From positions 4,171,001 to 4,235,000 of the forward strand of contig NZ_JARUBM010000002.1 of the NCBI RefSeq assembly GCF_029626175.1: a DNA stretch of 64,000 nt, written 5' to 3'. This DNA comes from Micromonospora sp. WMMD1082. Lineage in GTDB: Bacteria > Actinomycetota > Actinomycetes > Mycobacteriales > Micromonosporaceae. The position numbers and the translations under genes were made by a program. The notes below the pieces were generated by a model. That model searched no databases. It was not told the origin of the DNA and saw nothing but the letters and a program-made list of their open reading frames with translations. Of this stretch, positions 4,711 through 22,425 are shown piece by piece. Numbering within the stretch: the stretch's first letter is position 1; each line of letters opens with the position of its first letter.

Positions 4711-7700
4711 CTAACGTTCTGCGGCGCTGACCAACTCAGCCATACCATAGGCGTTAAGTGCCAGCAGCTGATCGATTAGGTCTAGGCATTCTCGTCGCTG
4801 GGCTTGAGAACTAGCTTGAGCGTATGCCCTGGATACAAGCTGCCCGATCTCCCTCGCATCTCCAGCAGCACTCGTCGAGATGTCGCCAATATCTGACCCG
4901 TGAACTTCAATAAAACGACGAGCGCACGAAATTACAAGCGAATCGACACGATCTGGCGCATGTTCGAGCGTTATGAGCAACTGCGGCACTGCTTGTGGAT
5001 AAGTCTCGGAGGAGATTAGCGCCGACAAGGCACGGGAAAACGGACGCAGTCGCTCGTCGCGAAGAGCGCCAGCAACCTCGGCCACAGCCCTGCGAACACC
5101 TTCGTCACTATCGTTCATCAGCCCTACTAGAGCGTCTTCCGCCACAGCAGGATTGCTTGAAGACGGCGTTAGATGCGCACATGCTTCTGCGGCACCTTTT
5201 CGACTTGATGAATCCGGACTCCCAACAACAGACGTGAGTAACTCCTCCCACCCCCACTCAACTCCTGCGTAGCCCGCTAAAGCACCACCACACTGCCGCA
5301 CCTCGGCAGCGTCCGCGTGGAGCATCCGTGGCACAATCGGCCTAACGAGGGTGGAATCTCCGTTTCCGATATACCTAATGAGTCGCGTAACAGTCTCAAC
5401 CGCAAGCAACCTATCGTCTGCCTGTACCAGCAGATTGAAGGCCTCAACTGCTTCAGGTCGTGCGTGCCGTAAGCAGGCCGCGATCACGTGGGCTATGCAC
5501 GATCGAACGGCGATAGATGAATCCTGTGCCATTCGGCGCAGAGCAGGCACAACTAGCGCTGTCCGACTTCCATTCGAGTCGTAGAAGAGAAGATCTCCTA
5601 AGCTGAGAGCAAGACTACCCCTCGCCGTGTTCATGCCCTCCGAGAAAATCGCATCGCCAAGAGACTCTCGTTCGCCCAATTCACGGGTGGACCATCTGTC
5701 TTCGGCGGGATTCTCCGACTTCAACGTCAACTCCACTATCATCGAAATGATGTCGGCCGGAATATCAGTCTTAAGGTAATTGCGACGGATAGGCCAGCCG
5801 AGCCATCGATCGTTTCCGACGAGTTGAAGTGACGCAATGTGCCGCATGGCTGCAAAGATCGGCTCTGGATCAGGAAGAGCCCCAGATTCTCCCAGGCCAA
5901 GCAAGATTGCCTCAGTATAGGCAGGGTTAATTTCGCTAGTGAACCGCAGGGAGAGCTTCGCGAACCGTTCCGGATCCTTCGATACCTCACTCTTTAGAAC
6001 CTGTGAGAATTCGTGAGGCCCCCCTCGTAGCGCTCTAAATCCCTCACGGTCTGAGTGATGCTTAGCCATTGCGCGCAGCCAGTCATCATCAGACATGTAC
6101 TGCGCCGCTTCTGGTGCAATAGGCGACGGCACTGAACGCGCCACGATTGGTTCCGGCGCCTCGGGGTTTTCTGTACCAATGAGACGCCTGAGCTCACCCA
6201 GCCGTCGACGACCCGCAGGGGACAATCTAGTGTCATCCATGGCGGATAGCAGACAGAACATGTACCAGCCGGAACTCCCTATTTCCCATGGGAATCGAAG
6301 GCCAAGAATTTCCTGCTCCAAACGACCGAATAGATCCGCTGACAAATGAGGGCCTATAGCTTCGATGAGCTGGCGAGTCGTCCAGACACCGTTCGACATA
6401 TACCCGCTTAAGAATCGCTCGGGCCTCTGCAAAAGGAGGCTTCCTGCCCAATGGGCGAAGCATTCTGCCGCCGGACCTCTGATCCCTTCATACAGTAGCC
6501 ATTGAGCCGCCTCGTGTTGATCTGCCGCTAGGCTCTCTAGCAACGGCCAAGCCGCCTCCGGATCTTGGCCGGCGAAGTTGCGAAGAGCGTTAGCCGCGCC
6601 AAAAAGCAGGGCATCCTCTAGCTCATGGAAGCTTTCGTGTGGGACTCGTAGGCCAAAATGCCCGTCTGCGAAAAGGTGGTCCTCCCACTGTCGCTCCGTC
6701 AGGCGCATCACGGTCAGCAGGTATGGTATGAGCAGCTCACAGAAGGTTCGTGGAGCGCCCTCTGCTGCCTGTGTCGCTAGCCTGATTATGGCATCGTCGC
6801 GGTCAAGAAGGGGCGCAACCTTTCCGGATTCGTCCACAGCCAAAGAATCTGGCCGTAGGACAAGATGCGCGGCAAGCAATTCCACTGCCCACGTCGGCTG
6901 ATGTTCCGCTAGGTCATACGTAAACATCCACAGATTCTGATCGTACGTACGTATTTTGCCCGTGGAGATAGCATCAAGGAGTAAGTCAAAAAGTGAACGA
7001 CTCTCATGGACCCTTGCAAATCGCACAGTCCAGAGAAGCCAATCGCCATACCTATGGGCACGACCTGCGTGCGGCTTGAGAAGTTCGGCCATCCGGTCGG
7101 GCCTTTTCCTGATCCCGCCGAGCGCCACGTGCAAAGCGCAGTTCTGGACTTGTTCATCGCCACTTGCGAGCCACTCATCAAACATACCCTCGGCGTCGAG
7201 ACGATCGAACCAGGGCAGGGTACGCAATGAGAACCAGACTCGGTCTTCGAATGGTGGGTGTGAATCAACAACCCGACTCACCATATCCCAATCCGCGCTT
7301 GACGGATCAGGCAGAGAGCTAAGGATTCCGAGCACGACATCCTTAATATGGAATCTCACCTTGTCGTGCGAGAGTAAGCCCTCCACTTCCTCTACGAACC
7401 GCTCCGGCTCCGACGCTCTGAGATGGCTAAGAATCTGGCGAACCTGAGACCGCCGGAATAACTCCTGCTCACTCGCAAGGAGAAATTCGACGATGCTTTG
7501 CTGCCGACTAATCCATCCACGAGTAAAGACGTAGCCAAAAAAAGCCTCGTGAAAGAACGCGATCTGCTGGCCATCCCGGGTAAGAACATGTTCCGATACC
7601 AGCACGCTGGCATCGACTGCCAGATCATTCTGGTCGAGAACCGACGCGCTCACTGAAAGGCGCTGCCGCGAACTCATCGCGTTAGCGACAGTTTGAGCAA

Positions 7701-9168
7701 CCAACGCGAATCGGGTGCCTTCACGCCTACGTGAGCAGTCGATTACCTTACGGTCCCAAAAAGCATCGAACAGGTTGTTTGGAGTCTGAAAGGACAGCGC
7801 TCCTGCCTGATCAGCAATACTTTGCAATAGGACGAGATGTAAGGGCGACTGAAGCAAATCTAGTTGTCGTTGATCTAGCGCGGCAGGATCGAGCCCCATC
7901 CGGTGTACAGCTTCTGCCACCTGAGATTCGGACAGCTTCCCTAGCTCCACGCGCGCAGATCGCTCACCCGCAACCAATTCACGTATGCGATGATCGTTCT
8001 CAACGTCGAACTTGCGGCAAGCGAGCACAACCCGCATGTTCGGAAAAGCGGAGGCCTCCCTGACCGTGTTTGCGATGGCATCAAAGCTGCGGGGCATACG
8101 ACCAGACGCCAGGCTAACCGCATCAAGCTGATCTATTACAAGGACCGCCGCGCGTTCACCCGCGAGGACCGAGAGCGCCGTTACCGGAGAAACTCCGAGA
8201 CCGAGCCGTTCACCAAGCTCAGTAGTGGATGAGAAAGGTTCAAGTCGGTCAAGTCGAAACCCAAGGACCGCTACCTGCTTGTCGTTTAGTCGTGCCGCCA
8301 CTTCGTGAAGTACCGCACTCTTACCATAACCCGCGTCACCAGTGAGGAGGAGTAAGCGATCCTCGCTCTCCAACATGTCAACCAGATTGACCGCCTCGCT
8401 ACGTCCAATCACCGGATCAATAAGCTCGCGTTCGACCCCTGCTATCCATCCCGCTGTAGCGGCAGCGACCTTTTCAACTATTGATGCTGTGCGCATTCGT
8501 TGCGCACGGCGAAGCCCGTACTCGGACAAGTTGGATTCGATGGTTTGGGCATCGAGCCGGACGCCGAGGTTATGTTGGATAAGATCGCCGAGACCAACTG
8601 CGGCAAGCTTGCCCTCCGCACCTTCAAGTAGCAAGCCAGCGAGCGCAGCATTCATGTCGTTGATGTTTCGCTCATCTGGCCACTCAATCCAAAAGCCCCG
8701 TAGAACGGTCCAAGCAACTTGCGCTGACCCGAAGATCGCAGTAGAAGCAAGCTCGTCGAAAGGGTCCTTTAGCTCCTGAGTCAGCCAGTGATCCCAAAAA
8801 GACGTCAGGTCGGACGAGCGTCGGACTCTATCGCTAAGCTCTTGTAATGGACGGGCGGGGATTGTAGACACGAAGTGGAATCGGCGCCCATCCTCAACAT
8901 GCTTTCGGGCATTCTCCCAAATTCCTTTATCGTGAAGCGACTTAGGCGTCCAACTGTTCGCATTTCCGTTTTGCCGCTTCAGTTGGTGCACCTGCACTGA
9001 ACTGCCTTGGTAAAAGGTAAACTCTACCCCCTTTGCCAAGTCGTCGATATCCTCGACAGTGATCGATTCGGCGGCACCAGTGAGCACTCGTAGGGCATGC
9101 TGGATAGTCCAAGCGCCTTCGTAACGATTGCCGAACTTATCGGCTTCACCGCCAGGTCGCGGACTCAT
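4711..9168 (-). CDS. Avs-like STAND NTPase with N-terminal nuclease-like domain (candidate antiphage defence)
   Basis: 1485 residues. Residues 12-110 resemble the Cap4/DUF4297 dsDNA endonuclease fold: YEGAW helix, acidic patch EDIDD at 39-43 with E49, then the Q-x-K signature HQLKRQ at 61-66 (Q62, K64). Residues 250-450 form a STAND/AAA-like NTPase with Walker A GDAGYGKS (277-284), Walker B AAVLVIDQLD (340-349) and a sensor-like VVLACRKFD. Roughly 1000 helical residues follow, with HEAT-like repeats visible near the end (around 1330-1440). Nuclease plus STAND plus long repeat sensor is the plan of Avs (AVAST) proteins, which bind a conserved phage protein, oligomerise and cleave DNA. The gene is visibly lower in GC than its neighbours, which suggests recent transfer. 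The start has GGAG 7 nt upstream. It stands alone between two regulator modules. Antiphage activity is inferred. Confidence 0.75.
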   Translation of the reverse strand: MSPRPGGEADKFGNRYEGAWTIQHALRVLTGAAESITVEDIDDLAKGVEFTFYQGSSVQVHQLKRQNGNANSWTPKSLHDKGIWENARKHVEDGRRFHFVSTIPARPLQELSDRVRRSSDLTSFWDHWLTQELKDPFDELASTAIFGSAQVAWTVLRGFWIEWPDERNINDMNAALAGLLLEGAEGKLAAVGLGDLIQHNLGVRLDAQTIESNLSEYGLRRAQRMRTASIVEKVAAATAGWIAGVERELIDPVIGRSEAVNLVDMLESEDRLLLLTGDAGYGKSAVLHEVAARLNDKQVAVLGFRLDRLEPFSSTTELGERLGLGVSPVTALSVLAGERAAVLVIDQLDAVSLASGRMPRSFDAIANTVREASAFPNMRVVLACRKFDVENDHRIRELVAGERSARVELGKLSESQVAEAVHRMGLDPAALDQRQLDLLQSPLHLVLLQSIADQAGALSFQTPNNLFDAFWDRKVIDCSRRREGTRFALVAQTVANAMSSRQRLSVSASVLDQNDLAVDASVLVSEHVLTRDGQQIAFFHEAFFGYVFTRGWISRQQSIVEFLLASEQELFRRSQVRQILSHLRASEPERFVEEVEGLLSHDKVRFHIKDVVLGILSSLPDPSSADWDMVSRVVDSHPPFEDRVWFSLRTLPWFDRLDAEGMFDEWLASGDEQVQNCALHVALGGIRKRPDRMAELLKPHAGRAHRYGDWLLWTVRFARVHESRSLFDLLLDAISTGKIRTYDQNLWMFTYDLAEHQPTWAVELLAAHLVLRPDSLAVDESGKVAPLLDRDDAIIRLATQAAEGAPRTFCELLIPYLLTVMRLTERQWEDHLFADGHFGLRVPHESFHELEDALLFGAANALRNFAGQDPEAAWPLLESLAADQHEAAQWLLYEGIRGPAAECFAHWAGSLLLQRPERFLSGYMSNGVWTTRQLIEAIGPHLSADLFGRLEQEILGLRFPWEIGSSGWYMFCLLSAMDDTRLSPAGRRRLGELRRLIGTENPEAPEPIVARSVPSPIAPEAAQYMSDDDWLRAMAKHHSDREGFRALRGGPHEFSQVLKSEVSKDPERFAKLSLRFTSEINPAYTEAILLGLGESGALPDPEPIFAAMRHIASLQLVGNDRWLGWPIRRNYLKTDIPADIISMIVELTLKSENPAEDRWSTRELGERESLGDAIFSEGMNTARGSLALSLGDLLFYDSNGSRTALVVPALRRMAQDSSIAVRSCIAHVIAACLRHARPEAVEAFNLLVQADDRLLAVETVTRLIRYIGNGDSTLVRPIVPRMLHADAAEVRQCGGALAGYAGVEWGWEELLTSVVGSPDSSSRKGAAEACAHLTPSSSNPAVAEDALVGLMNDSDEGVRRAVAEVAGALRDERLRPFSRALSALISSETYPQAVPQLLITLEHAPDRVDSLVISCARRFIEVHGSDIGDISTSAAGDAREIGQLVSRAYAQASSQAQRRECLDLIDQLLALNAYGMAELVSAAER

Positions 9169-9498
9169 TCACCGGTCTCCGATCCAGTCCAGGCGAAGTG
9201 GAGATTCCAAATTTTTGGGCTATTGGTAATGAAGCTCATTGCATATCATTTTGGACACTCTGGTGAATTTGTCAAACACGAGCAGCAACTCACCGCTTGG
9301 CGACCTGCTGCTCGCATCAGGTTGGTGAGCTGCGTCCTGATCGCTCCAAAGGAGGGTCACCGCGTCACCGTACGCTCACTCGGCGACAGTCTTCCAGGAC
9401 CGCCGCGTCTGCCTGTTCGACCAGATGGCCAGGGCCTACAGGCGAAGGAGCGTGTGGGGCTGGCCAGTCATCGCTATCTGTAACTCAATGTCTACTCC

Positions 9499-11965: not shown

Positions 11966-13210
11966 TTATCTGGTGGACGTGTACATGGGCGCGATCTCTA
12001 TTGCCGCACGCCCTTTCGTGCAGACGGGTGAAAGAAAATCATGCTTTAGGTCGGCTTGCAGCCATGCAACAAATTGGAAACTCTCCAAAGGAGGGAGGAG
12101 TTTTTCGCTAATTCCTGCTCGCAGGTTACTACCATGCAGTACGCCCTCCGTGAGAATTAGGTCACCTAGGAAGATCCGCCAGTGCAGGTAGTGGTCGCAT
12201 CCGGCTTCGGGAAGGAAGATCACCTCTGCCTCGATGATATTAATCGGTCCTTGCGTCGACCTAAGCGTAACGTCAAAGTATCGTGATGGGCTAATTTCTT
12301 GCTGCGAAATGTCAGCCTCAACTGTCGTTCCCCGTTCGGTGTGCGTTAGCTTCAGGTCTGGATGGGTTGACTTCTCGACGGTCAGGTACAGTCGCTCCTG
12401 CGATGGCCGCCCGTCTCGCACAGCAACGACATAGACTAGGGCGGCAATGGCTAGCACTACCAGCGAGACTCCGGCAACCAACCGCCTCCTAGTGAGCCTT
12501 TGCATCAAGGCCATTCTCTTTAGTCTGAAATTCCCAAGCGCACCTGGCTCCGACTTGTCAACGACTTCCTCTGAAATGGCTGGGCGATTCAACGGCTGCC
12601 GAGGAATGTCCGGCTCTTCAGAAACAACCTCCGGCGTGCCCCTATCCCCGTCGACGAACTCGGAATCTTGGCTGTCAACCTTCTCCGTCGGCGGCAGTTG
12701 CACTGCTGGAGCAATGTCCATCATGCTCTCAATGAGTTCCGGTTGTACGGTTATCCACGCAAAAACCTTGTAAGCCGGAGGAATCGACTTGTCGATGTGC
12801 TCTCTTGCATTCCGGGGGCTGGATATTCCTCCACGGCCACTGCCTCGACTCGTAATCTTGCGCCCTGCGCGCGCTTGCCTGACCTCGGTCTCGCCATAAC
12901 GTCCTTTGGCTGGCTTTGGGTCTTCCGGATAGCGCTCATCCCGGATCCCAGCAAATTCCCCGAACACATCTACATAATCGAACCCGCCACGCTCTGGAGC
13001 CGGATTTTCCCTACGGTAGGCGACCAAAGCGTGTAGCACGCGAGAAAGGGCGTCAGTCGGCGGCACTTGCCAGCGGTCAGCCAGGTGGGCAGTCAGATCG
13101 AGCAAGGCCACGCATTCTAGAAGCTGGGACTGGCTAATCCCGCGTCGGGCAATTTTTTCCAGCTCAATCTTAGCCTGCAGCTCATCCTTGCGAGGGATAA
13201 CGTCCGCCAC
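11966..13210 (-). CDS. Single-pass membrane protein of unknown function, low-GC cargo
   Basis: 414 residues from a GTG at 13210 with AAAGGG upstream. Residues 1-70 are helical, and 80-140 are rich in Gly/Arg and look flexible. A Pro/Glu-rich linker runs to about 240. A transmembrane span lies at about 244-264 (LVAGVSLVVLAIAALVYVVAV), preceded by an Arg cluster, so the N-terminal part should be cytoplasmic. The outer part (265-414) is beta-rich with strands such as YFDVTLRSTQ and IIEAEVIFLP. I recognise no family. Base composition is clearly lower in GC than flanking genes. Divergent from the 13303-13785 gene. A transmembrane signalling or sensing protein is one reading, without direct support. 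Confidence 0.7.
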   Translation of the reverse strand: MADVIPRKDELQAKIELEKIARRGISQSQLLECVALLDLTAHLADRWQVPPTDALSRVLHALVAYRRENPAPERGGFDYVDVFGEFAGIRDERYPEDPKPAKGRYGETEVRQARAGRKITSRGSGRGGISSPRNAREHIDKSIPPAYKVFAWITVQPELIESMMDIAPAVQLPPTEKVDSQDSEFVDGDRGTPEVVSEEPDIPRQPLNRPAISEEVVDKSEPGALGNFRLKRMALMQRLTRRRLVAGVSLVVLAIAALVYVVAVRDGRPSQERLYLTVEKSTHPDLKLTHTERGTTVEADISQQEISPSRYFDVTLRSTQGPINIIEAEVIFLPEAGCDHYLHWRIFLGDLILTEGVLHGSNLRAGISEKLLPPLESFQFVAWLQADLKHDFLSPVCTKGRAAIEIAPMYTSTR

Positions 13211-14662: not shown

Positions 14663-14838
14663 GTCGGGAGCCGGGCGGCACCTGGCGGTCGAAGGTACTC
14701 GGGTCGGTGTTCATTCTGCTGGGCACGGCCCTGGCGGCGCGGGTGGTCTGGGAACTGCTTCGCCCGCTCGTCGGGTTTTTGGTAGTCATTCTCGTCCTGT
14801 CGCTCATTTACTGGCTGGCGTTTTCGCGGCGACGGTAG
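14659..14838 (+). CDS. 59-aa two-span membrane protein with TTG start
   Basis: A TTG at 14659 overlaps the preceding stop (TTGA) and opens a 59-residue frame: a short polar head, hydrophobic span one (VLGSVFILLGTALAARVVW), a Leu-Arg-Pro turn, span two (LVGFLVVILVLSLIYWLAF) and a terminal SRRR. The two clean spans and coupling to the upstream membrane-protein gene favour a real gene over the competing frame at 14634-14879, which is Gly/His-rich and shadow-like. Likely a spread or transfer-accessory membrane protein. Confidence 0.55.
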   Translation: MSREPGGTWRSKVLGSVFILLGTALAARVVWELLRPLVGFLVVILVLSLIYWLAFSRRR

Positions 14839-14914
14839 GCGGCAGGCAAAGCGACCTGGTTCAGCAGGTTCGCAGTTAGAAATCTCGTTCAAAGAAGGGA
14901 GTCACAGTGCCTCC

Positions 14915-15058
14915 ATGCCCAGACAGGGTCGGAAGGAAATCATCGGCAAGCGTGAGGATATTGCGCGGCGGCTGCGGGAGGAAGAGCTTCACGAACTGAA
15001 GCGCGAGTTGCGGCGGGAGTGGCGCAAGAAGCGCCGTAAGCCGCAACAGGAGAAGTAG
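14915..15058 (+). CDS. 47-aa highly charged helical protein
   Basis: Frame starting MPRQGRKEIIGKREDIARRL and continuing as alternating Arg/Glu/Lys helix with no hydrophobic core, ending in KPQQEK. GAAGGGAG lies about 13 nt upstream, somewhat far. Such peptides are often nucleic-acid-binding or unstructured accessory proteins; function unknown. A 36-codon frame after it (15063-15173, GTG start) is Pro/Gly-rich and overlaps a hairpin, and I do not call it a gene. Confidence 0.45.
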   Translation: MPRQGRKEIIGKREDIARRLREEELHELKRELRREWRKKRRKPQQEK

Positions 15059-15074
15059 GTAGGTGACGGCCGTG

Positions 15075-15109
15075 TCCAAGCCACCGGGCCCGCGTGGCCC
15101 CGGCTTGGA
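15075..15109. terminator. Long hairpin (terminator or transfer-origin structure)
   Basis: Arms TCCAAGCC (15075-15082) and GGCTTGGA (15102-15109) pair perfectly. Inside them GGGCC and GGCCC extend the stem after a small bulge. It follows the 47-aa gene by 16 nt, with no T tract. Simple termination and a nick-site hairpin are both possible. Confidence 0.5.
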
Positions 15110-15194
15110 TGCAGCCGTCATCCCGCTACAAATGTTGGCACCGCTCTTGTGGTCGGAGGGTGCCGGTCGGTGATGCGGAAATTACTTAACTCTA

Positions 15195-15229
15195 TTGACC
15201 AAATCTAGTCATTCCCTCATAAGTGAGGG
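15195..15229 (+). promoter_or_regulatory. Promoter with overlapping palindromic operator
   Basis: TTGACC at 15195-15200 and CATAAG at 15218-15223 are 17 nt apart. The -10 box sits inside the perfect palindrome CCCTCA-TAAG-TGAGGG (15214-15229). A repressor bound there would block RNA polymerase. It is the likely promoter of the 15431-19756 operon, with a long leader of about 200 nt. Confidence 0.5.
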
Positions 15230-15430
15230 CGGGCGGGAACTGGGCTGCCGGGCAGTATCGGGTCAATCGGACGACATGATGACTGCCCCGCAGCAAGTGA
15301 GCCGGAGTAACCGGTCATTGGACATTTAAGCAAACTTGGGCTGCGCGAATCAATGCGTAGGTCTTGTTCGAGATGCCCACATGGCCGTTGCTACTTCGGT
15401 CCGCCTCCTAATTCGGAAGGAGGACGAGAA

Positions 15431-15604
15431 GTGAGTCAGATCAACAACAAGCCGGTCGCGGTGACCGGCTACGAGGAGAGGAGACGCCCGGAGATCAGGA
15501 AGCTTGCGCGGGCCTGTATCGAGCTGGCGCGGTTGCGCCTTGCCAAGCAGTCGCCGGGCGAGAAGCACGGCAAGCCGGAGTCCAGCACGGAGGGTGCAGC
15601 ATGA
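15431..15604 (+). CDS. Hypothetical 57-aa protein before the ATPase gene
   Basis: GTG start at 15431 with AAGGAGG 7 nt upstream, a strong ribosome-binding site that sets the start. The peptide MSQINNKPVAVTGYEERRRP continues with a basic helix (EIRKLARACIELARLRLAK) and a disordered tail. It overlaps the ATPase gene by 4 nt (ATGA). No family recognised. Small basic helical proteins ahead of conjugation ATPases can be DNA-binding accessories, but that is only suggested by position. Confidence 0.65.
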   Translation: MSQINNKPVAVTGYEERRRPEIRKLARACIELARLRLAKQSPGEKHGKPESSTEGAA

Positions 15605-17802
15605 GTCGCCTGAGCTGGTACTCGTTGAGCTTGCCGCGTGGCATGGAGATGGCCGACGTGACGGCAGTGCTGCGCCCGCTGGCCGCCCGGCCGCGCTTCG
15701 GCGTCACCGGTGCGGTGCCCTTGGCGGTACTCGAAGTCTGGAGCATCGGCGGCCAGGTGTCGTGGCGCCTGGGACTGGACTTCCGGGTTGCGCGCAGCCT
15801 GTCGCAACAGATGGCCGCGCACCTGCCCCGGCTGGGCATACAGCAGGAACAAGAGGTCGAACACCCGGAGCTATCCACAGCCGCCGAGGTACGGATGTAC
15901 GGCTTGGCAATGCCGCTGCGACTGGAGACTGCCGGGGCGGTGGCCTCGGGGCTACTTGCCGTTCTTGGCGGGCTGGCCACGTCGGAGACAGCGGTCGTGC
16001 AGTGGGTTGTCGGGCCCTGCCGCACCCGGCCGTGCCCGCCAGCCCGGCTCGATGTCGGTGAAGTCCTTGGACTGCACGCGCCCCACACGCCGGATGCCAC
16101 CGCACTCGGGCTGTGGCGAGACAAGGTTACGGAACCCCTGTTCGGGTGTCGGGGCAGAATCGCGGCGGATAGTCCGACGCCGACCCGGGCGGCGGCCATC
16201 GTGCGGAGCTTGGTCGATGCGCTTGCCTTGGCCGACACCGCACACGCCGGACTCCGCAGGGGCCGGATCAGCGCCCGATGCGCCCGCCGGGTCGGTGCCG
16301 CTGGCCGTGCACCGCTGACCTGGAGCTGCCTTCTCTCGGCTGCCGAGCTGGCGGCCGTGATCGGCTGGCCACTTAAGGAGACGCCGGGCGAGAATCTGCC
16401 GCTGGTCGGCGGTCACATCAACGAGGCCCCGCACAAACTTCTCGTTGACGAGGACGAGGAAGTAGGCGGCGGCGGCCGGATTCTCGGAGAGAGCCTGCAC
16501 GCCGCCCAACGCGGTCAGCTGGTGGCCATGCCGGTTGGCTCTGCCCTGCACCACGTCCAGGTCGTGGGCCCGACCGGATCGGGTAAGTCGACTCTGCTGG
16601 CCTCGATGATCCTGGCCGACATCGCAGCGGGCCGCTCGACGCTGGTAGTCGAGCCACGCGGCGATCTGATCAACGACGTGCTTGCGCGAATACCGAAAGA
16701 CCGGCGCGACCGGGTAGTGGTGATTGACCCAGCCAGCGGCGGCCATGGCCGTGCCGTCGGCGTCAACGTCCTGACTGGCAAACGAGAAGACGCCGAGCGC
16801 CGTGCCGACGAAGTGGTACACCTGCTGGCCGAGCTGCACGGCGGCAATCTTGGCCCACGCAGTACGGATGTGCTGCTGCACGCGCTCATCACGGCCGCGC
16901 GGCTGCCGGACGGCACCTTGTGCGACGTGCCTGCCCTGCTGGCTAATGTAGCGTTCCGCCGCCAGGCGCTCGCCAAGGTCGGTGATCCGCTGGTGCTGTC
17001 ACCGTGGTGGGCAGGCTTCGACGCCTTGTCCGAGCCGGAGCGCGGCCGGTACGTCGCCCCGCTCATGAACAAGCTGCGCCCGATCCTCAGCCGGTCGCAT
17101 CTGCGGCGGATGCTCGGCCAGCCCGCGCCGAAGTTCGGCATGGACGAGCTGTTCACCACGCCCGGCACGGTCGTGCTGGTGAATCTCAATCGCGGACTGC
17201 TCGGCACACCGGCCGCAAACATGCTCGGCGCACTGGTGCTCAGCCAGGCATGGGCCGCCATCCAGCGGCGGGCCGCACTACCGCCAGAGAAGCGGCAGGC
17301 CGCCTCGATCGTCGTCGACGAGTTCCAGGATTTCCTGCGCCTTCCGGGCGGGGTTGACTTCGGAGACGCCCTGGCTCAATCCCGAGGCCTCGGGGTGGCC
17401 TGGACACTTGCCCACCAACACCTTGACCAGCTCAGTTCCGCCCAGCAAGCCGGAGTGCTAGCCAATGCTCGCTCCCGGATCGTGTTCCGTCCCTCGCCCG
17501 GCGACGCCAAGCCGCTCGCGGCGGCCCTCGGCGGCGGCGTCACCGCCGACGACTTGCTCAGCCTGCGGGCCTACCAGGCGTGCGTCCAGTTGCACTTTGA
17601 CGGGCAGCCGACTCGGCCCTTCTCGATCCGCACCCGGCCGTTGCCGCCCTGGACCGGCGACCCAGCCAAGCTTCGCCAGGCCAGCGCCGAGCGCTACGGC
17701 GTGGACGGCGGAGAACTCGATAACGCCCTGATCCAGCGGTGGCAAAGCAACCCGGCCACGACCGACGCCCCGGTCGGCTTCAAACGGAGGGAGGCCCCGT
17801 GA
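15601..17802 (+). CDS. TraG/VirD4-like conjugative DNA-transfer ATPase
   Basis: 733 residues. The N-terminal 300 residues are poorly conserved, Arg/Ala-rich, with a possible hydrophobic stretch near 112-124. The ATPase has Walker A GPTGSGKS at 323-330, a TLVVEPRGDLIND segment, and Walker B IVVDEFQDF at about 570-578. A late RIVFRPSPGDAK..LAAALGG region is typical of type IV coupling-protein-like ATPases of Gram-positive elements. The family couples ATP hydrolysis to DNA export at the cell membrane. There is no clear transmembrane pair, so it may depend on the small membrane proteins encoded just upstream. Overlaps neighbours by 4 nt on both sides. Confidence 0.85.
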   Translation: MSRLSWYSLSLPRGMEMADVTAVLRPLAARPRFGVTGAVPLAVLEVWSIGGQVSWRLGLDFRVARSLSQQMAAHLPRLGIQQEQEVEHPELSTAAEVRMYGLAMPLRLETAGAVASGLLAVLGGLATSETAVVQWVVGPCRTRPCPPARLDVGEVLGLHAPHTPDATALGLWRDKVTEPLFGCRGRIAADSPTPTRAAAIVRSLVDALALADTAHAGLRRGRISARCARRVGAAGRAPLTWSCLLSAAELAAVIGWPLKETPGENLPLVGGHINEAPHKLLVDEDEEVGGGGRILGESLHAAQRGQLVAMPVGSALHHVQVVGPTGSGKSTLLASMILADIAAGRSTLVVEPRGDLINDVLARIPKDRRDRVVVIDPASGGHGRAVGVNVLTGKREDAERRADEVVHLLAELHGGNLGPRSTDVLLHALITAARLPDGTLCDVPALLANVAFRRQALAKVGDPLVLSPWWAGFDALSEPERGRYVAPLMNKLRPILSRSHLRRMLGQPAPKFGMDELFTTPGTVVLVNLNRGLLGTPAANMLGALVLSQAWAAIQRRAALPPEKRQAASIVVDEFQDFLRLPGGVDFGDALAQSRGLGVAWTLAHQHLDQLSSAQQAGVLANARSRIVFRPSPGDAKPLAAALGGGVTADDLLSLRAYQACVQLHFDGQPTRPFSIRTRPLPPWTGDPAKLRQASAERYGVDGGELDNALIQRWQSNPATTDAPVGFKRREAP

Positions 17803-18734
17803 GCCCGCACATCGATTCCCCTACCCCTGCCGGTCGCCCTGCCTGCCGCGTCGAGCCGGTCATGCCGCTGACATGCGCAAACGGCGTTGCCGCGCCAACG
17901 ACTGTCGAGCCGATACCGGCTCGACCCCGGAGCCCACGAGCCCACCTGCTCAGGAAGCGGCTCAGCGACCGCGACCTGGCCGTACTGCAATCGCTGGCCA
18001 TGCTGCGCCTACTGAGGGGTGATCAGGTACAGCGGCTCCACGTCGCGGAAGGATCGGCTGAGACAAGAGCGAGACGGGCACGGGCCCTGCTGCAACGCCT
18101 GGCCGAACTCAAACTGGTCGTGCGGCTCGCCCGTAGGGTCGGCGGCGTACGTGCGGGCAGCGCCGGTTACGTCTACGGACTGAGCGGTCACGGCCAGGCG
18201 GTGCTTGCCGTTGACGGGCCCACGGGCGGACGCCGCCGGCGGGTGTGGGAAACCAGCCCCAGCTTCATGGGGCATGTCCTCGACGGCAGCGAGGTGTACA
18301 TCCGCCTGGTCGAAGCGGAACGCACCGGCAAGCTGGAGATTCTTAACTTCCAGGCCGAACCCGCAGCCTGGCGGCATTTCCCCGGCCCTGGTGGACCGAC
18401 AGCCACCCTGAAGCCCGATGGCTTCGTGCGCCTCGGCATCGGTGACGTCGAGTCCAGCGCCTTCCTGGAGGTCGACCGCGGCACCGAAAGCGTGCCGACA
18501 CTCGTGCGCAAGTGCCGCACCTACGCCGCCTACTGGCAAAGCGGTATCGAGCAAGCCGCGCACGCGGTGTTCCCTCGGGTGCTGTGGCTGGCCAGTGGCG
18601 CACGCAGCGCGGAGCGCATCACCAGGGCACTCACCCAGCTACCCGCTGACACCCAGCACCTGTTCCACACGTCGTTCCTGGAAGACGTCGTGACAGTGCT
18701 GACCGCTACGGCCCTGGGAGGCCGCAGTGCATGA
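17799..18734 (+). CDS. Replication-relaxation family protein
   Basis: 311 residues from a GTG at 17799 overlapping the ATPase stop (GTGA), with GGAGGGAGG upstream. After a Pro-rich leader of about 45 residues comes a winged-helix segment (LSDRDLAVLQSLAMLRLLRGDQVQRL), then a nuclease-like alpha/beta domain with PDGFVRLGIG, SSAFLEVDRGTES and KCRTYAAYWQ, as in Replic_Relax (PF13814) proteins. The D..EvD pattern resembles a restriction-endonuclease fold. These proteins are found beside TraG-like ATPases on actinomycete plasmids and elements and are thought to act at the origin, perhaps in place of a relaxase; the exact activity is not established. Confidence 0.85.
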   Translation: MSPHIDSPTPAGRPACRVEPVMPLTCANGVAAPTTVEPIPARPRSPRAHLLRKRLSDRDLAVLQSLAMLRLLRGDQVQRLHVAEGSAETRARRARALLQRLAELKLVVRLARRVGGVRAGSAGYVYGLSGHGQAVLAVDGPTGGRRRRVWETSPSFMGHVLDGSEVYIRLVEAERTGKLEILNFQAEPAAWRHFPGPGGPTATLKPDGFVRLGIGDVESSAFLEVDRGTESVPTLVRKCRTYAAYWQSGIEQAAHAVFPRVLWLASGARSAERITRALTQLPADTQHLFHTSFLEDVVTVLTATALGGRSA

Positions 18735-19756
18735 GCGGGCCACAACAGGCCCGGCTTCCCCTGGGGCAGATCGTCATCGGGGACGCGCGCCAGCGGCTGG
18801 CCGAACTGCCGGATGCGAGTATCGACACCTGCATCACCAGCCCGCCCTACTGGAACCTGCGCGACTACGGCCACCACGGGCAACTCGGCCTTGAGCCGGA
18901 CGTCAACGGCTGGGTACGCAACCTGGTCAGCGTCTGCCGCCTGGTCGCCCGGGTTCTCAAGCCCAGCGGATCACTCTGGCTGAACGTCGCAGACTCGTAC
19001 TCGATCCACCACCGCCAGGGCGCACCCAAGAAGAGTCTGCTGCTCGGCCCGCAGCGCCTCGCCCTGGCCCTGCTCGATGACGGCTGGCTCATCCGGAACC
19101 AAGTCGTGTGGGCCAAGACCAACCCGATGCCGTCCAGTGTGGGCGACCGGCTGAGCTGCACCTACGAGGTGATGTTCCTGCTGGTGCGCTCACCGCGCTA
19201 CTACTTTGACCTTGACGCGATCCGCCAGCCGCTCATCACCAAGGCGAAGAAGCGCCCGAACGCGGCGGCCTACCGCTACCTGCCGGACGACGCGATTCCG
19301 CCGGACATCGGGTTCAACGACGACCAGGGCCTCAACCGGCTCAAGGCCGAAGGCCGCGCCGGGCACCCACTTGGCAAGAATCCCGGAGATGTCTTCGCCC
19401 TACCCACCGCTGGCTACCGGGGCGCGCACTTCGCCACCTTCCCGCTGGCGCTTGTCGAACGGCCGCTGCTGGCCACCTGCCCCGAAAGGGTCTGCGCGGC
19501 CTGCGGCACGCCGTGGGCGCGGCAGCCCGTCGACCGCCAGCAACCGACACCAACGCTCGGCGCACTCTGGGCAGGCTGCCAGTGCAACGCCAGAACCCAA
19601 CCGGGCGTGGCGCTCGACCCGTTCTTGGGATCCGGCACCGTCGCCATGGCAGCCGAGAAGCACGGCCGCCACTGGATCGGCATCGAGCTGAACTCGACGT
19701 ACGCGACGCTGGCGCGTGACCGGCTCGCCGCGTGGCGGAAGCGGCAGGGCCGATGA
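18731..19756 (+). CDS. Site-specific DNA (N4-cytosine/N6-adenine) methyltransferase
   Basis: 341 residues. Catalytic motif TSPPYWNLRDYG starts at 36, and the SAM-binding motif DPFLGSGT is at 296-303 near the C-terminus, so the motif order is that of a beta-class amino-methyltransferase. Between them lie target-recognition sequences and a Cys cluster (C250, C255, C258, C283, C285) that should bind zinc. No restriction enzyme is next to it. Overlap by 4 nt with the replication-relaxation gene places it in the transfer operon, suggesting protection of the element from host restriction or marking of its own origin. Confidence 0.9.
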   Translation: MSGPQQARLPLGQIVIGDARQRLAELPDASIDTCITSPPYWNLRDYGHHGQLGLEPDVNGWVRNLVSVCRLVARVLKPSGSLWLNVADSYSIHHRQGAPKKSLLLGPQRLALALLDDGWLIRNQVVWAKTNPMPSSVGDRLSCTYEVMFLLVRSPRYYFDLDAIRQPLITKAKKRPNAAAYRYLPDDAIPPDIGFNDDQGLNRLKAEGRAGHPLGKNPGDVFALPTAGYRGAHFATFPLALVERPLLATCPERVCAACGTPWARQPVDRQQPTPTLGALWAGCQCNARTQPGVALDPFLGSGTVAMAAEKHGRHWIGIELNSTYATLARDRLAAWRKRQGR

Positions 19757-20243: not shown

Positions 20244-20425
20244 GCTTATCCACAACAAAGCTGCAAAAACTACAGCTCGCGATATGAAATCGGCCTGAGA
20301 AAATAGAAGGGAACATGAATGAAGAATCAAGATCACAAAGAATTGCATCGGAATCGGCGAGAACGTATCCTGCCTGGCCCCAGGACGCGCGGGGGCGCGA
20401 TGGAATGACGGATCGGGAGGAAGAC

Positions 20426-22414
20426 ATGCCTGCCGAATTGCCGGTGTACACGGACGAAGATCAGGGGACAGATCAAGATCGGGATGGAAGGGCGGCAGGG
20501 ACTGTCGAGCGTTCAGCGCGACGTTCCCTGAACCAGACCGACCGCAAGGCGCTCATCAGCCGCCTAAACGACGGCAGCAGTTCGGTAAGCGAGATGGTCG
20601 GCAACCTGCGCGGCAGCCGTAGCAGTCCCAAGCCGCAGACTGCGGGAAACATCCCGCGCATCGCGATCTACCTGCGAGTGAGTACCGAAGAACAAGCCAA
20701 GATGGGCGGCGAAGCCGAAGGCTACTCGATTCCGTACCAGCGGGAAGCCTGTCTGGGCAAGGTGCGGGCGCTTGGCGGGATTTTGGTTGAGGAATACGTG
20801 GACGCTGGCGAGAGTGCGAAGTCGGCGCATCGGCCGCAGCTACAGAAGATGCTGCGCGAGTTGAAAGCCAAGCGCGTTGACTTCGTGATCGTCCACAAAA
20901 TCGACAGGCTGGCCCGCAACCGAGCCGATGATGTCGAGATCAACGCCGCCATAGCCCGCGCCGGAGCCAAGCTGATCTCTGTGGCTGAGCCGGTGGACGA
21001 GACGCCTGCAGGCAAGCTGCTCTACAACATGATGGCCGACGTTGCTCAGTATCACTCCGACAACTTGGCGGCCGAAGTGCTCAAGGGCATGGACACCAAG
21101 GCACAGCGTGGCGGCACGCCATATCGCGCACCGCTGGGTTACCTGAACCGCAAGGAGTTCATCCGGAACGCCCGGCACAGCTACGTAGTGACGGACGAGG
21201 AGCGTGCGCCACTGATCCGCTGGGCGTTCGAGCAGTATGCCCTTGGCGACTGGGCAATCCGGCAACTGGTGGATGCTCTCAACGCCCAGGGGCTACAGAC
21301 ACGGACAACCCGCAAGCTGGCGGCCAAGCCGCTGACGATCTCGGGGGTGCACCACATGCTGCGCAACCCGTACTACATGGGCGTGGTGCCCTACCGGGGT
21401 GTGTATCACGAGGGCAAGCATGAGCCGCTGGTCAGTCCGAAGCTGTGGTTGCGGGTCCAAGACGTACTGACCGCACACCACCTGGCCGGAGAGAAAGAAC
21501 GGAAGCATCCGCACTACCTGAAGGGCTCAATCTTCTGCGGTGAGTGCGGTGCCCGCCTGATCTACAGCCGCAACCGGGGCAACGGCGGCGAGTACGAGTA
21601 CTTCACCTGCCTTTCCCGGCGCACGGGCCGACGGCCCTGCACGCGCAAGCCGATGCGGCTGGAGCGGATTGAGGATGGCATCGCAGAGTTCTACGGCACG
21701 TTCCGGCTGTCGGCCGAGCGAGCTGAGCTTATCCGCGATGGCGTACTGGACGAACTGGCCGCCAGCCGTGAGGAAGCCGACCGCAGCAGTCAGCGAGCCA
21801 AGCTGCGGATCGCTCGCCTCAGCGACGAACGGCAGAAGCTGCTTACCGCGCACTACGCCGGAGCGGTGCCGTTGGACATGCTCAAGAGCGAGATGGACCG
21901 GCTGACCGCCGAGATGACTGATGCTGAAGCACAAGCGGCTGCGGCTACCCGTGAAGTTGCTGACGTGGAAGGCACGCTGACGGCGGCGCTTGAGATCGCA
22001 GAGGGGTGCGAGCGGGAGTATCTGGTTGCCATACCCAGGCTGCGCAGGCTGATCAACCAGGGGTTGTTCAAGGCGCTGTACATAGGAGAGGACTGCTCGG
22101 TGGAGCGGTTCGAGATGACAGAACCCTTCGCCACGCTGTTGGACCGTGACCTGCTCGAAGATCTGGCGACGGAACAGGCCAACCGCAAGCAGGCGATTCT
22201 TGGCGTGGCCGAGCAAGCGGAGCGTGGGCACCAAAAAGCCGAGGACCGCTGTCGGCCCTCGGCTGTGATGGCAAGGAGTTTCACCTGTCTACCCAAAACG
22301 GACAAGCCGGACGGCGGGGCCGTCCGGCTTGGTTTGCACAAGATCTATCTGGTGCGCCCGGCAGGATTCGAACCTGCGGCCTTGGGATTAGAAGTCCCCT
22401 GCTCTATCCGCTGA
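20426..22414 (+). CDS. Large serine recombinase (integrase) of the element
   Basis: 662 residues from the ATG at 20426, chosen for GGGAGG 5 nt upstream; the frame is open to 20315. An unusual 75-residue polar leader precedes the resolvase domain, which starts RIAIYLRVSTEEQ with catalytic Ser86 and includes VHKIDRLARN. A recombinase domain follows (AIRQLVDALNAQG, LRNPYYMG), then a zinc ribbon (CGECGARLIYS with later CLSRR and PCTRKP), a long coiled coil and a C-terminal tail. Large serine integrases join attP and attB without host factors and need a directionality factor for excision; no candidate is obvious. The last ~55 residues read through two minus-strand terminators and into the antisense of tRNA-Arg, so the natural C-terminus probably lies near 22240. 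Confidence 0.9.
   Translation: MPAELPVYTDEDQGTDQDRDGRAAGTVERSARRSLNQTDRKALISRLNDGSSSVSEMVGNLRGSRSSPKPQTAGNIPRIAIYLRVSTEEQAKMGGEAEGYSIPYQREACLGKVRALGGILVEEYVDAGESAKSAHRPQLQKMLRELKAKRVDFVIVHKIDRLARNRADDVEINAAIARAGAKLISVAEPVDETPAGKLLYNMMADVAQYHSDNLAAEVLKGMDTKAQRGGTPYRAPLGYLNRKEFIRNARHSYVVTDEERAPLIRWAFEQYALGDWAIRQLVDALNAQGLQTRTTRKLAAKPLTISGVHHMLRNPYYMGVVPYRGVYHEGKHEPLVSPKLWLRVQDVLTAHHLAGEKERKHPHYLKGSIFCGECGARLIYSRNRGNGGEYEYFTCLSRRTGRRPCTRKPMRLERIEDGIAEFYGTFRLSAERAELIRDGVLDELAASREEADRSSQRAKLRIARLSDERQKLLTAHYAGAVPLDMLKSEMDRLTAEMTDAEAQAAAATREVADVEGTLTAALEIAEGCEREYLVAIPRLRRLINQGLFKALYIGEDCSVERFEMTEPFATLLDRDLLEDLATEQANRKQAILGVAEQAERGHQKAEDRCRPSAVMARSFTCLPKTDKPDGGAVRLGLHKIYLVRPAGFEPAALGLEVPCSIR
22238..22263 (-). 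terminator. Intrinsic terminator downstream of tRNA-Arg (distal)
   Basis: On the minus strand GCCGAGG pairs with CCTCGGC around a 12-nt loop and is followed directly by TTTTT. It lies inside the 3' part of the recombinase frame. It is the second of two minus-strand hairpins after the tRNA. Confidence 0.65.
22303..22331 (-). terminator. Intrinsic terminator of tRNA-Arg (proximal)
   Basis: A perfect 12-bp stem CAAGCCGGACGG / CCGTCCGGCTTG with a 5-nt loop. On the minus strand it is followed by TCCGTTTT. It starts about 19 nt after the CCA end of the tRNA gene and also lies inside the recombinase frame. Confidence 0.75.
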
Positions 22415-22425
22415 GCTACGGGCGC
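22350..22425 (-). tRNA. tRNA-Arg (anticodon TCT), CCA encoded
   Basis: Full cloverleaf on the minus strand: acceptor GCGCCCG/CGGGCGC, D-stem GCTC/GAGC, anticodon loop CTTCTAA giving TCT, T-arm with GGTTCGAATCC, discriminator A and genomic CCA. The antisense of this gene encodes the last residues of the neighbouring serine-recombinase frame, and its 3' end faces the element, the usual side for integration. Confidence 0.97.

Follow-up and report, generated by a model that had tools for sequence, protein, structure and literature searches.

A minus-strand gene for a predicted nuclease, a STAND NTPase and a helical solenoid

We analyzed a stretch of 64,000 nucleotides from Micromonospora sp. WMMD1082 (contig NZ_JARUBM010000002.1, positions 4,171,001 to 4,235,000; hereafter the window), in which an earlier note, made from the letters alone, had proposed a stand-alone Avs-like antiphage gene joining a nuclease, a STAND NTPase and sensor repeats. 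The gene (4711..9168, stop codon included), for which the earlier note had named no strand, lies on the minus strand and encodes 1485 amino acids in an uninterrupted open reading frame (ORF) from an ATG at 9168-9166 to a stop codon at 4713-4711; read on the plus strand from 4711, the same DNA has no open frame and carries stop codons throughout. The assignment of the start codon is supported by a putative ribosome-binding site, GGAG (9177..9180, minus), 8 nt ahead of the ATG, and by an N-terminus near MSPRPGGEADKFGNRYEGAW that is common to most of 21 aligned members of the family. The gene is present as a single copy in its own genome, and its closest named orthologues, those of Micromonospora okii, M. 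sp. RP3T, M. wenchangensis and Krasilnikovia, each stand at 75%. It is under purifying selection, with a ratio of nonsynonymous to synonymous substitution rates (dN/dS) of ~0.09 against three Micromonospora orthologues, at a dS of 1.7-1.8 that is near saturation, and of 0.13-0.14 among these three orthologues themselves. As had been noticed, the gene is low in GC, with 0.55-0.56 in 5001-9000 compared with ~0.65-0.80 per kb across 60 kb leftward and 0.68-0.77 rightward of 23 kb.

The N-terminal part (residues 8-218; 8515..9147, minus) is modelled as a PD-(D/E)xK nuclease domain of the Cap4/DUF4297/HamA fold (AlphaFold model, predicted local distance difference test (pLDDT) score 89; VIA matches to 9c1m_G and 8zue_A), which agrees with the Cap4/DUF4297-type effector suspected from a Q-x-K run with upstream acids. 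The signature consists of E39, E49 and Q62-x-K64 (residues 39-64; 8977..9054, minus), and the residue numbering given for Q62-L-K64 was correct. We aligned the family in 249 rows (242 distinct sequences), 238 of which have letters at positions 39, 49, 62 and 64; the 11 rows that lack at least one of the four were left uncounted and comprise truncated or nuclease-less proteins and a pair of TIR proteins described below. E-E-Q-K is intact in 234 of the 238 rows, the four exceptions being P0114 (EDQK, a conservative change), L102 (EESK) and the two caspase fusions P0081 (EQRE) and P0151 (EAHA). The main protein of L102, from a Planctomycetota bin, has Q62 changed to S and retains E39, E49 and K64. 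No nuclease family is found among the 16 Pfam families listed at E<=1, a range in which the HMMER filters lose most matches above ~0.1, and the Foldseek and VIA rows listed for residues 1-218 hold no other nuclease family, which says nothing on exclusion. By its fold and its conserved acidic and (Q/E)xK residues, the N-terminal domain appears to be a Cap4/DUF4297-like nuclease that is predicted to cut DNA.

Residues 226-560 (7489..8493, minus) form a NACHT/NLR-like STAND NTPase with a winged helix, with VIA matches to NLRC4, NLRP3 and NLRP9 and a Pfam NACHT match that passes narrowly (27.4 bits against a gathering score of 26.7), the Pfam families nSTAND1 and AAA_16 both falling below their gathering scores. 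Walker A, GDAGYGKS, lies at residues 277-284 (8317..8340, minus), exactly where it had been placed, and its K283 is found in 246 of 249 rows, with gaps in the other 3. The Walker B region, which had been put at 340-349, is present as the run AVLVIDQLDAVS at residues 341-352 (8113..8148, minus), with D346 in 247 and Q347 in 248 of 249 rows; R385 and D388 are likewise each found in 248. Residues 538-547 (FFHE; 7528..7557, minus), which we take to be the winged-helix signature, contain H540, again in 248 of 249 rows. A NACHT signature has a small residue right after the Walker B aspartate and an acidic pair downstream. The run D346-Q-L-D-A departs from this Walker B definition, since Q347 stands in the place of the small residue; nonetheless, the Pfam match, narrowly, and the fold point to NACHT/NLR.

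The rest of the protein (residues 570-1485; 4714..7461, minus) is a helical HEAT-type solenoid, the presumed sensor, with HEAT_2 above its gathering score and an AlphaFold model at pLDDT 92. The helical repeats expected there are present and extend over ~915 residues, not the ~1000 that had been supposed. Among the Foldseek matches listed, Avs4 (8dgf) gives this part the highest template-modelling (TM) score, 0.47-0.48. When the mean identity of 22 non-actinobacterial members to the window protein was followed in 40-residue steps over 23 segments of the solenoid, leaving out the truncated L099, it was 14-36% in 19 of the 23 and rose to 48% in 570-609, 40% in 1010-1049, 43% in 1050-1089 and 40% in 1210-1249. 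The cross-phylum conserved block at residues 1010-1089 (P-I..D..W..GG..L..P.RF; 5902..6141, minus) coincides in part with a stretch of the model that is rich in loops and less regular, and residues 1006-1093 are also among those that align with PDB 9n00. This block may contact the ligand.

A widespread family with exchangeable effectors

A protein search admitting lengths of 0.55-1.75 times the query yielded 768 homologues at E<=1e-3 (7993 candidates scored); 117 of the 120 homologues listed are 1435-1521 aa long and 118 cover at least 97% of the query, and with so many homologues of near-uniform length the gene is more than a chance ORF. Scanning one genome per species, we obtained 309 pattern stretches, of which 203 were confirmed and the best 80 kept. 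By record title, 23 of these 80 loci, many of them in metagenome bins, are from outside the Actinomycetota: cyanobacteria, Chloroflexota, Planctomycetota, KSB1, Armatimonadetes, Nitrospinota, Omnitrophota, Halomonas, Bryobacterales and Geobacteraceae. All but one of the 23 matches run from residue 5 or earlier to residue 1468 or later, at 29-33%. The distribution is patchy, with a match in 3 of 61 genomes mostly of the same genus or order and in 18 of 394 genomes of the class, the own genome being included in both counts and several of the class matches being weak and confined to the NTPase or to fragments. A remote member of 1602 aa in a genus relative (L148:5989-10797) shares the layout of the window protein, judged from where the two match, and its nuclease part contains the run HQCK. 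Homologues are entered in the source database as 'hypothetical protein', 'ATP-binding protein' or 'NACHT domain-containing protein'; we found no account of the family in the open-licence literature, and the accessible parts of PMC13236601 and PMC13092281 contain nothing on it. The family is apparently a widespread branch without a name in print.

In two relatives, P0081 and P0151, a caspase is fused ahead of a nuclease domain whose catalytic residues are lost. They pair together (support 0.595) within an eight-member clade (support 1.0) whose other six members are all E-E-Q-K, so the simplest reading is that the caspase was gained and the nuclease then decayed, in one event or a few. Searching with the caspase end brought up 79 more hits (P0151-P0229), of which P0151 alone BLAST-matches the window protein; P0081 and P0151 are the only caspase fusions found. 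Two other relatives, P0123 and P0124, carry a TIR_2 domain (5e-21 for P0123) at the position of the nuclease and belong to an 18-member clade (support 0.947) that also contains relatives with the nuclease; support is weak at the nearer nodes. Such exchange of nuclease, caspase and TIR effectors, as it appears from the sequences, is typical of immune STAND proteins.

Several other candidates were not accepted as effector swaps. L011 matches residues 625-1480 only, and its upstream frame is non-homologous and contains an unknown residue, which marks it as a truncated or misassembled copy beside a DruE4 gene. The nuclease region is missing from L009/P0139, P0130, P0149, P0125, P0126 and P0008, and Walker A as well from some of them; these proteins were not counted because truncation, a missed start and an effector in trans are indistinguishable. 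At L145, a nuclease-less member is accompanied by a TIR gene on the opposite strand and by a small gene of no assigned function ahead of the STAND gene (5694-6506, 8198-8707), and an effector in trans is possible. A Druantia DruE4 gene (L147:4421-9919, PADLOC E = 0) adjoins a truncated family member. At L012, L013 and L022, open frames of 62-90 aa give short matches confined to the nuclease part and are probably remnants of decayed copies.

The gene lies in a variable island at a tRNA gene

Rightward on the plus strand the gene is accompanied by DUF6879 and HTH-DUF5753 genes, and leftward by a second HTH-DUF5753 gene on the minus strand. A serine recombinase with Pfam Resolvase, Recombinase and Zn_ribbon_recom domains (20315..22414, plus), the presumed island integrase, has a frame that runs into tRNA-Arg(tct) in antisense; this tRNA gene (22350..22425, minus) is the right edge of the variable island by flank alignment to relatives. 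Both flanks were located in 3 of 7 genus relatives, with the left homology stopping at -5342 to -5375 and the right beginning at 22351-22354, and the DNA between them measures 27.7 kb here (-5350 on record L103 to 22351) as against 10.4, 8.7 and 2.6 kb in the three relatives. In the four other genus relatives the right flank is present, one of them having the left flank further out. Because the DNA differs between the same flanks, we regard this as a variable integration spot at tRNA-Arg, which bears out the earlier note in placing the gene in a mobile island. A repeat of tRNA-Arg was considered as the left attachment site and rejected: across the 60 kb upstream and the window, no exact 14-mer is shared with the tRNA, and the closest stretch has 12 mismatches over 32 bases. 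Long repeats are, however, not obligatory for a serine recombinase. Within the island, consecutive genes in 15601-19756 encode a coupling-type ATPase, a replication-relaxation protein and an N4/N6 DNA methylase, an arrangement like that of integrative conjugative elements. A 414-aa protein encoded at 11966-13210 (minus) matches neither Pfam (E<=1e-3) nor PADLOC (E<=1e-5).

The 80 loci, whose flanks are of unequal length, have 1096 neighbour ORFs, and no gene family among these occurs in more than 8 loci. The most recurrent one (8 loci) resembles a tyrosine integrase by eye, and Pfam applied to 120 neighbours found Phage_integrase in 3 and Recombinase in 2. Six Streptomyces loci (L039, L040, L042, L053, L058 and L068) have downstream genes in common, one of which encodes a Crp-like cNMP-binding regulator (L053:14458-15300) and some of which match no Pfam family.

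For defence genes, 20 family loci were compared with 20 control regions on the same contigs, taking 120 neighbour ORFs from each set at a PADLOC threshold of E<=1e-10; gene calling was heuristic and equal in both sets, and follow-up was closer for the family loci than for the control regions. The family loci matched 138 PADLOC models, the best 25 of which include type I restriction at L032, type III restriction at L057, Gabija at L069, two cyclases and one unplaced PDC-S19 match. Judging by motif and mutual similarity, the two cyclase-matching neighbours seem to belong to L050. The controls matched 47 models, among them an unplaced AbiU match at 5e-181; a single SNF2 helicase at control L134 gives both ZorD and DpdE rows, mostly through its C-terminal half, and the control rows mad3, AriA and mad8 are taken for generic. 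Defence genes were also considered at L031 and L060, where the one protein tested in each (14791-16359) had no PADLOC match.

Discussion

We think it probable that the window protein belongs to the effector-STAND-repeat kind as a stand-alone, NLR-like immune protein that senses an invader and cuts DNA. At rest, the C-terminal solenoid would keep the NTPase closed. Upon binding of the solenoid, perhaps at the 1010-1089 block, to a product of a phage or another mobile element, the ATP-bound NTPase and winged-helix modules would oligomerise, as suggested by Avs3/Avs4 and NLRs. This would join the N-terminal Cap4-like domains, which have the fold and the catalytic residues of a nuclease, and switch on a presumed DNA-cutting activity, so that DNA would be lost and the infection aborted. 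The effector of such a device is exchangeable: by sequence, a caspase or a TIR domain has taken its place in relatives.

Several points weigh against this interpretation. The enrichment near defence genes is a trend and no proof: defence loci number 4-5 of 20 against 1-3 of 20 in the controls, which is not significant (Fisher p 0.18-0.69 over five pairings). Loss of the nuclease site together with gain of a caspase is seen in two related sequences and perhaps reflects a single event. The lowest Foldseek E-values of the solenoid belong to eukaryotic HEAT proteins, and the solenoid fold alone therefore says little. The family has no match in 50,697 phage records. Finally, no named Avs profile covers the window protein: NCBIfam Avs2 reaches 11.9 bits over residues 268-386 against a cut-off of 1000, and PADLOC Avs2, the sole Avs model in a list of 9, reaches E 2e-4 at best over residues 260-386. 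Thus, of the Avs-like nuclease-STAND-repeat protein that the earlier note described, the architecture stands and a full-length match to a named Avs profile does not; the antiphage reading was right in kind, and the name was too strong.

The protein might instead watch a host process that is disturbed by a phage, a possibility that we hold only tentatively. The precedent is bNACHT25, which senses via the host DnaJ and whose phage trigger did not co-precipitate (PMC12169576), and conservation of the 1010-1089 block across phyla is what would be expected for a conserved host partner; however, Avs3 and Avs4, the closest solved architectures, were solved bound to phage terminase and portal according to their entry titles. 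It is rather unlikely that the gene is the island's weapon against rival plasmids or integrative elements and not against phages. The coupling-type ATPase, the replication-relaxation protein and the recombinase of the island would suit such a role, as would 13 plasmid records with remote relatives, 4 of them covering at least 80% of the protein (82%), but all 13 matches are below 60% identity, and the Avs and bNACHT precedents act on phages (PMC12931631, PMC12169576). A housekeeping or regulatory, transcription-factor-like STAND ATPase without an immune role is most improbable: STAND NTPases do include regulators, and the maltose-system regulator 8bob_C is in the structure list, but the distribution is patchy, the nuclease site is conserved, caspase and TIR replace the effector, and no DNA-binding output domain is present among the Pfam families listed.

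Going beyond the NLR-like immune protein that we favour, we suggest, as a speculation, that the family is a further, unnamed Avs-like type, spread over ~11 phyla by record titles (several of them metagenome bins), in which the solenoid would read one conserved feature of invaders, different from terminase and portal, via the 1010-1089 block, and nuclease, TIR and caspase outputs would be swapped on the same sensor. If true, the bacterial NLR-like proteins would gain a large branch that spans phyla; the build of the window protein resembles that of human inflammasome sensors. Because the nuclease residues are lost where a caspase is gained and TIR replaces the nuclease elsewhere, the sensor can be tested apart from the output, as one sensor with several readouts, and the 1010-1089 block is a concrete place to seek the ligand contact or an off-switch.

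Comparison with known systems

Several PADLOC models carry the prefix PDC, which we take to mean 'candidate'. The term is not in the main text of the PADLOC paper (PMC9252829). PDC-M54A gives the window protein its best PADLOC score (60.8 bits, residues 256-573), and 12 of 21 members match it at E<=1e-5; the match concerns the NTPase only, at profile positions 305-644 of 1657, and there is no full-length match. A solved distant cousin, the 'AAA family ATPase' of 1523 aa in PDB 9n00, 9n01 and 9yix, lowers the novelty of the family. It has a profile match at E 5e-40 that covers residues 36-641 and continues collinearly at 1006-1093 and 1172-1329. Its nuclease part holds a Q-x-K run, and its second half matches the window protein weakly (14 and 26 bits). 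It is absent among the best 50 Foldseek matches (structure library to 8 April 2026), and we found no paper on the three entries in the open-licence literature; a plasmid search with part of the 9n00 sequence returned only cyanobacterial and Segatella records, below 60% identity.

Among single domains, the nuclease is closest to two systems in which it is not joined to a STAND NTPase. In 8zue, which we take to be HamA of Hachiman and its partner, HamA is one subunit, whereas here the domain is fused to the STAND NTPase. Similarly, the DUF4297 protein of HerA-DUF4297 (9c1m) is encoded by a gene of its own and has the ATPase HerA as its partner. The bNACHT25 and bNACHT32 proteins (clade 6) share an N-terminal PD-(D/E)xK nuclease and a NACHT-like NTPase with the window protein; their C-terminus is, by its description, an NCH1 helical domain, which sets them apart from the ~915-residue HEAT-type solenoid. 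They degrade DNA on infection, for which the nuclease residue D48 is needed (PMC12169576).

By the structural models, Avs3 and Avs4 (AVAST; PDB 8dgc and 8dgf) match the full architecture best and likewise combine nuclease, STAND and helical repeat in one polypeptide; the comparison with Avs NTPases proposed in the earlier note was borne out in that chains of Avs3 and Avs4 take the first four places when residues 1-600 are compared by Foldseek (E 3e-13 and 2e-11). Avs1-4 recognise terminase, portal or some other protein of the phage and then cut both phage and host DNA (PMC12931631), and dimerisation is said to activate the nuclease domains of Avs3 (PMC12198126). In general terms, PMC7159879 and PMC8195603 describe conflict proteins whose effectors can be exchanged and which have STAND NTPases and repeats that form superstructures. 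The effector-STAND-repeat build is therefore already known, and the window protein is a new and apparently unnamed member of it.

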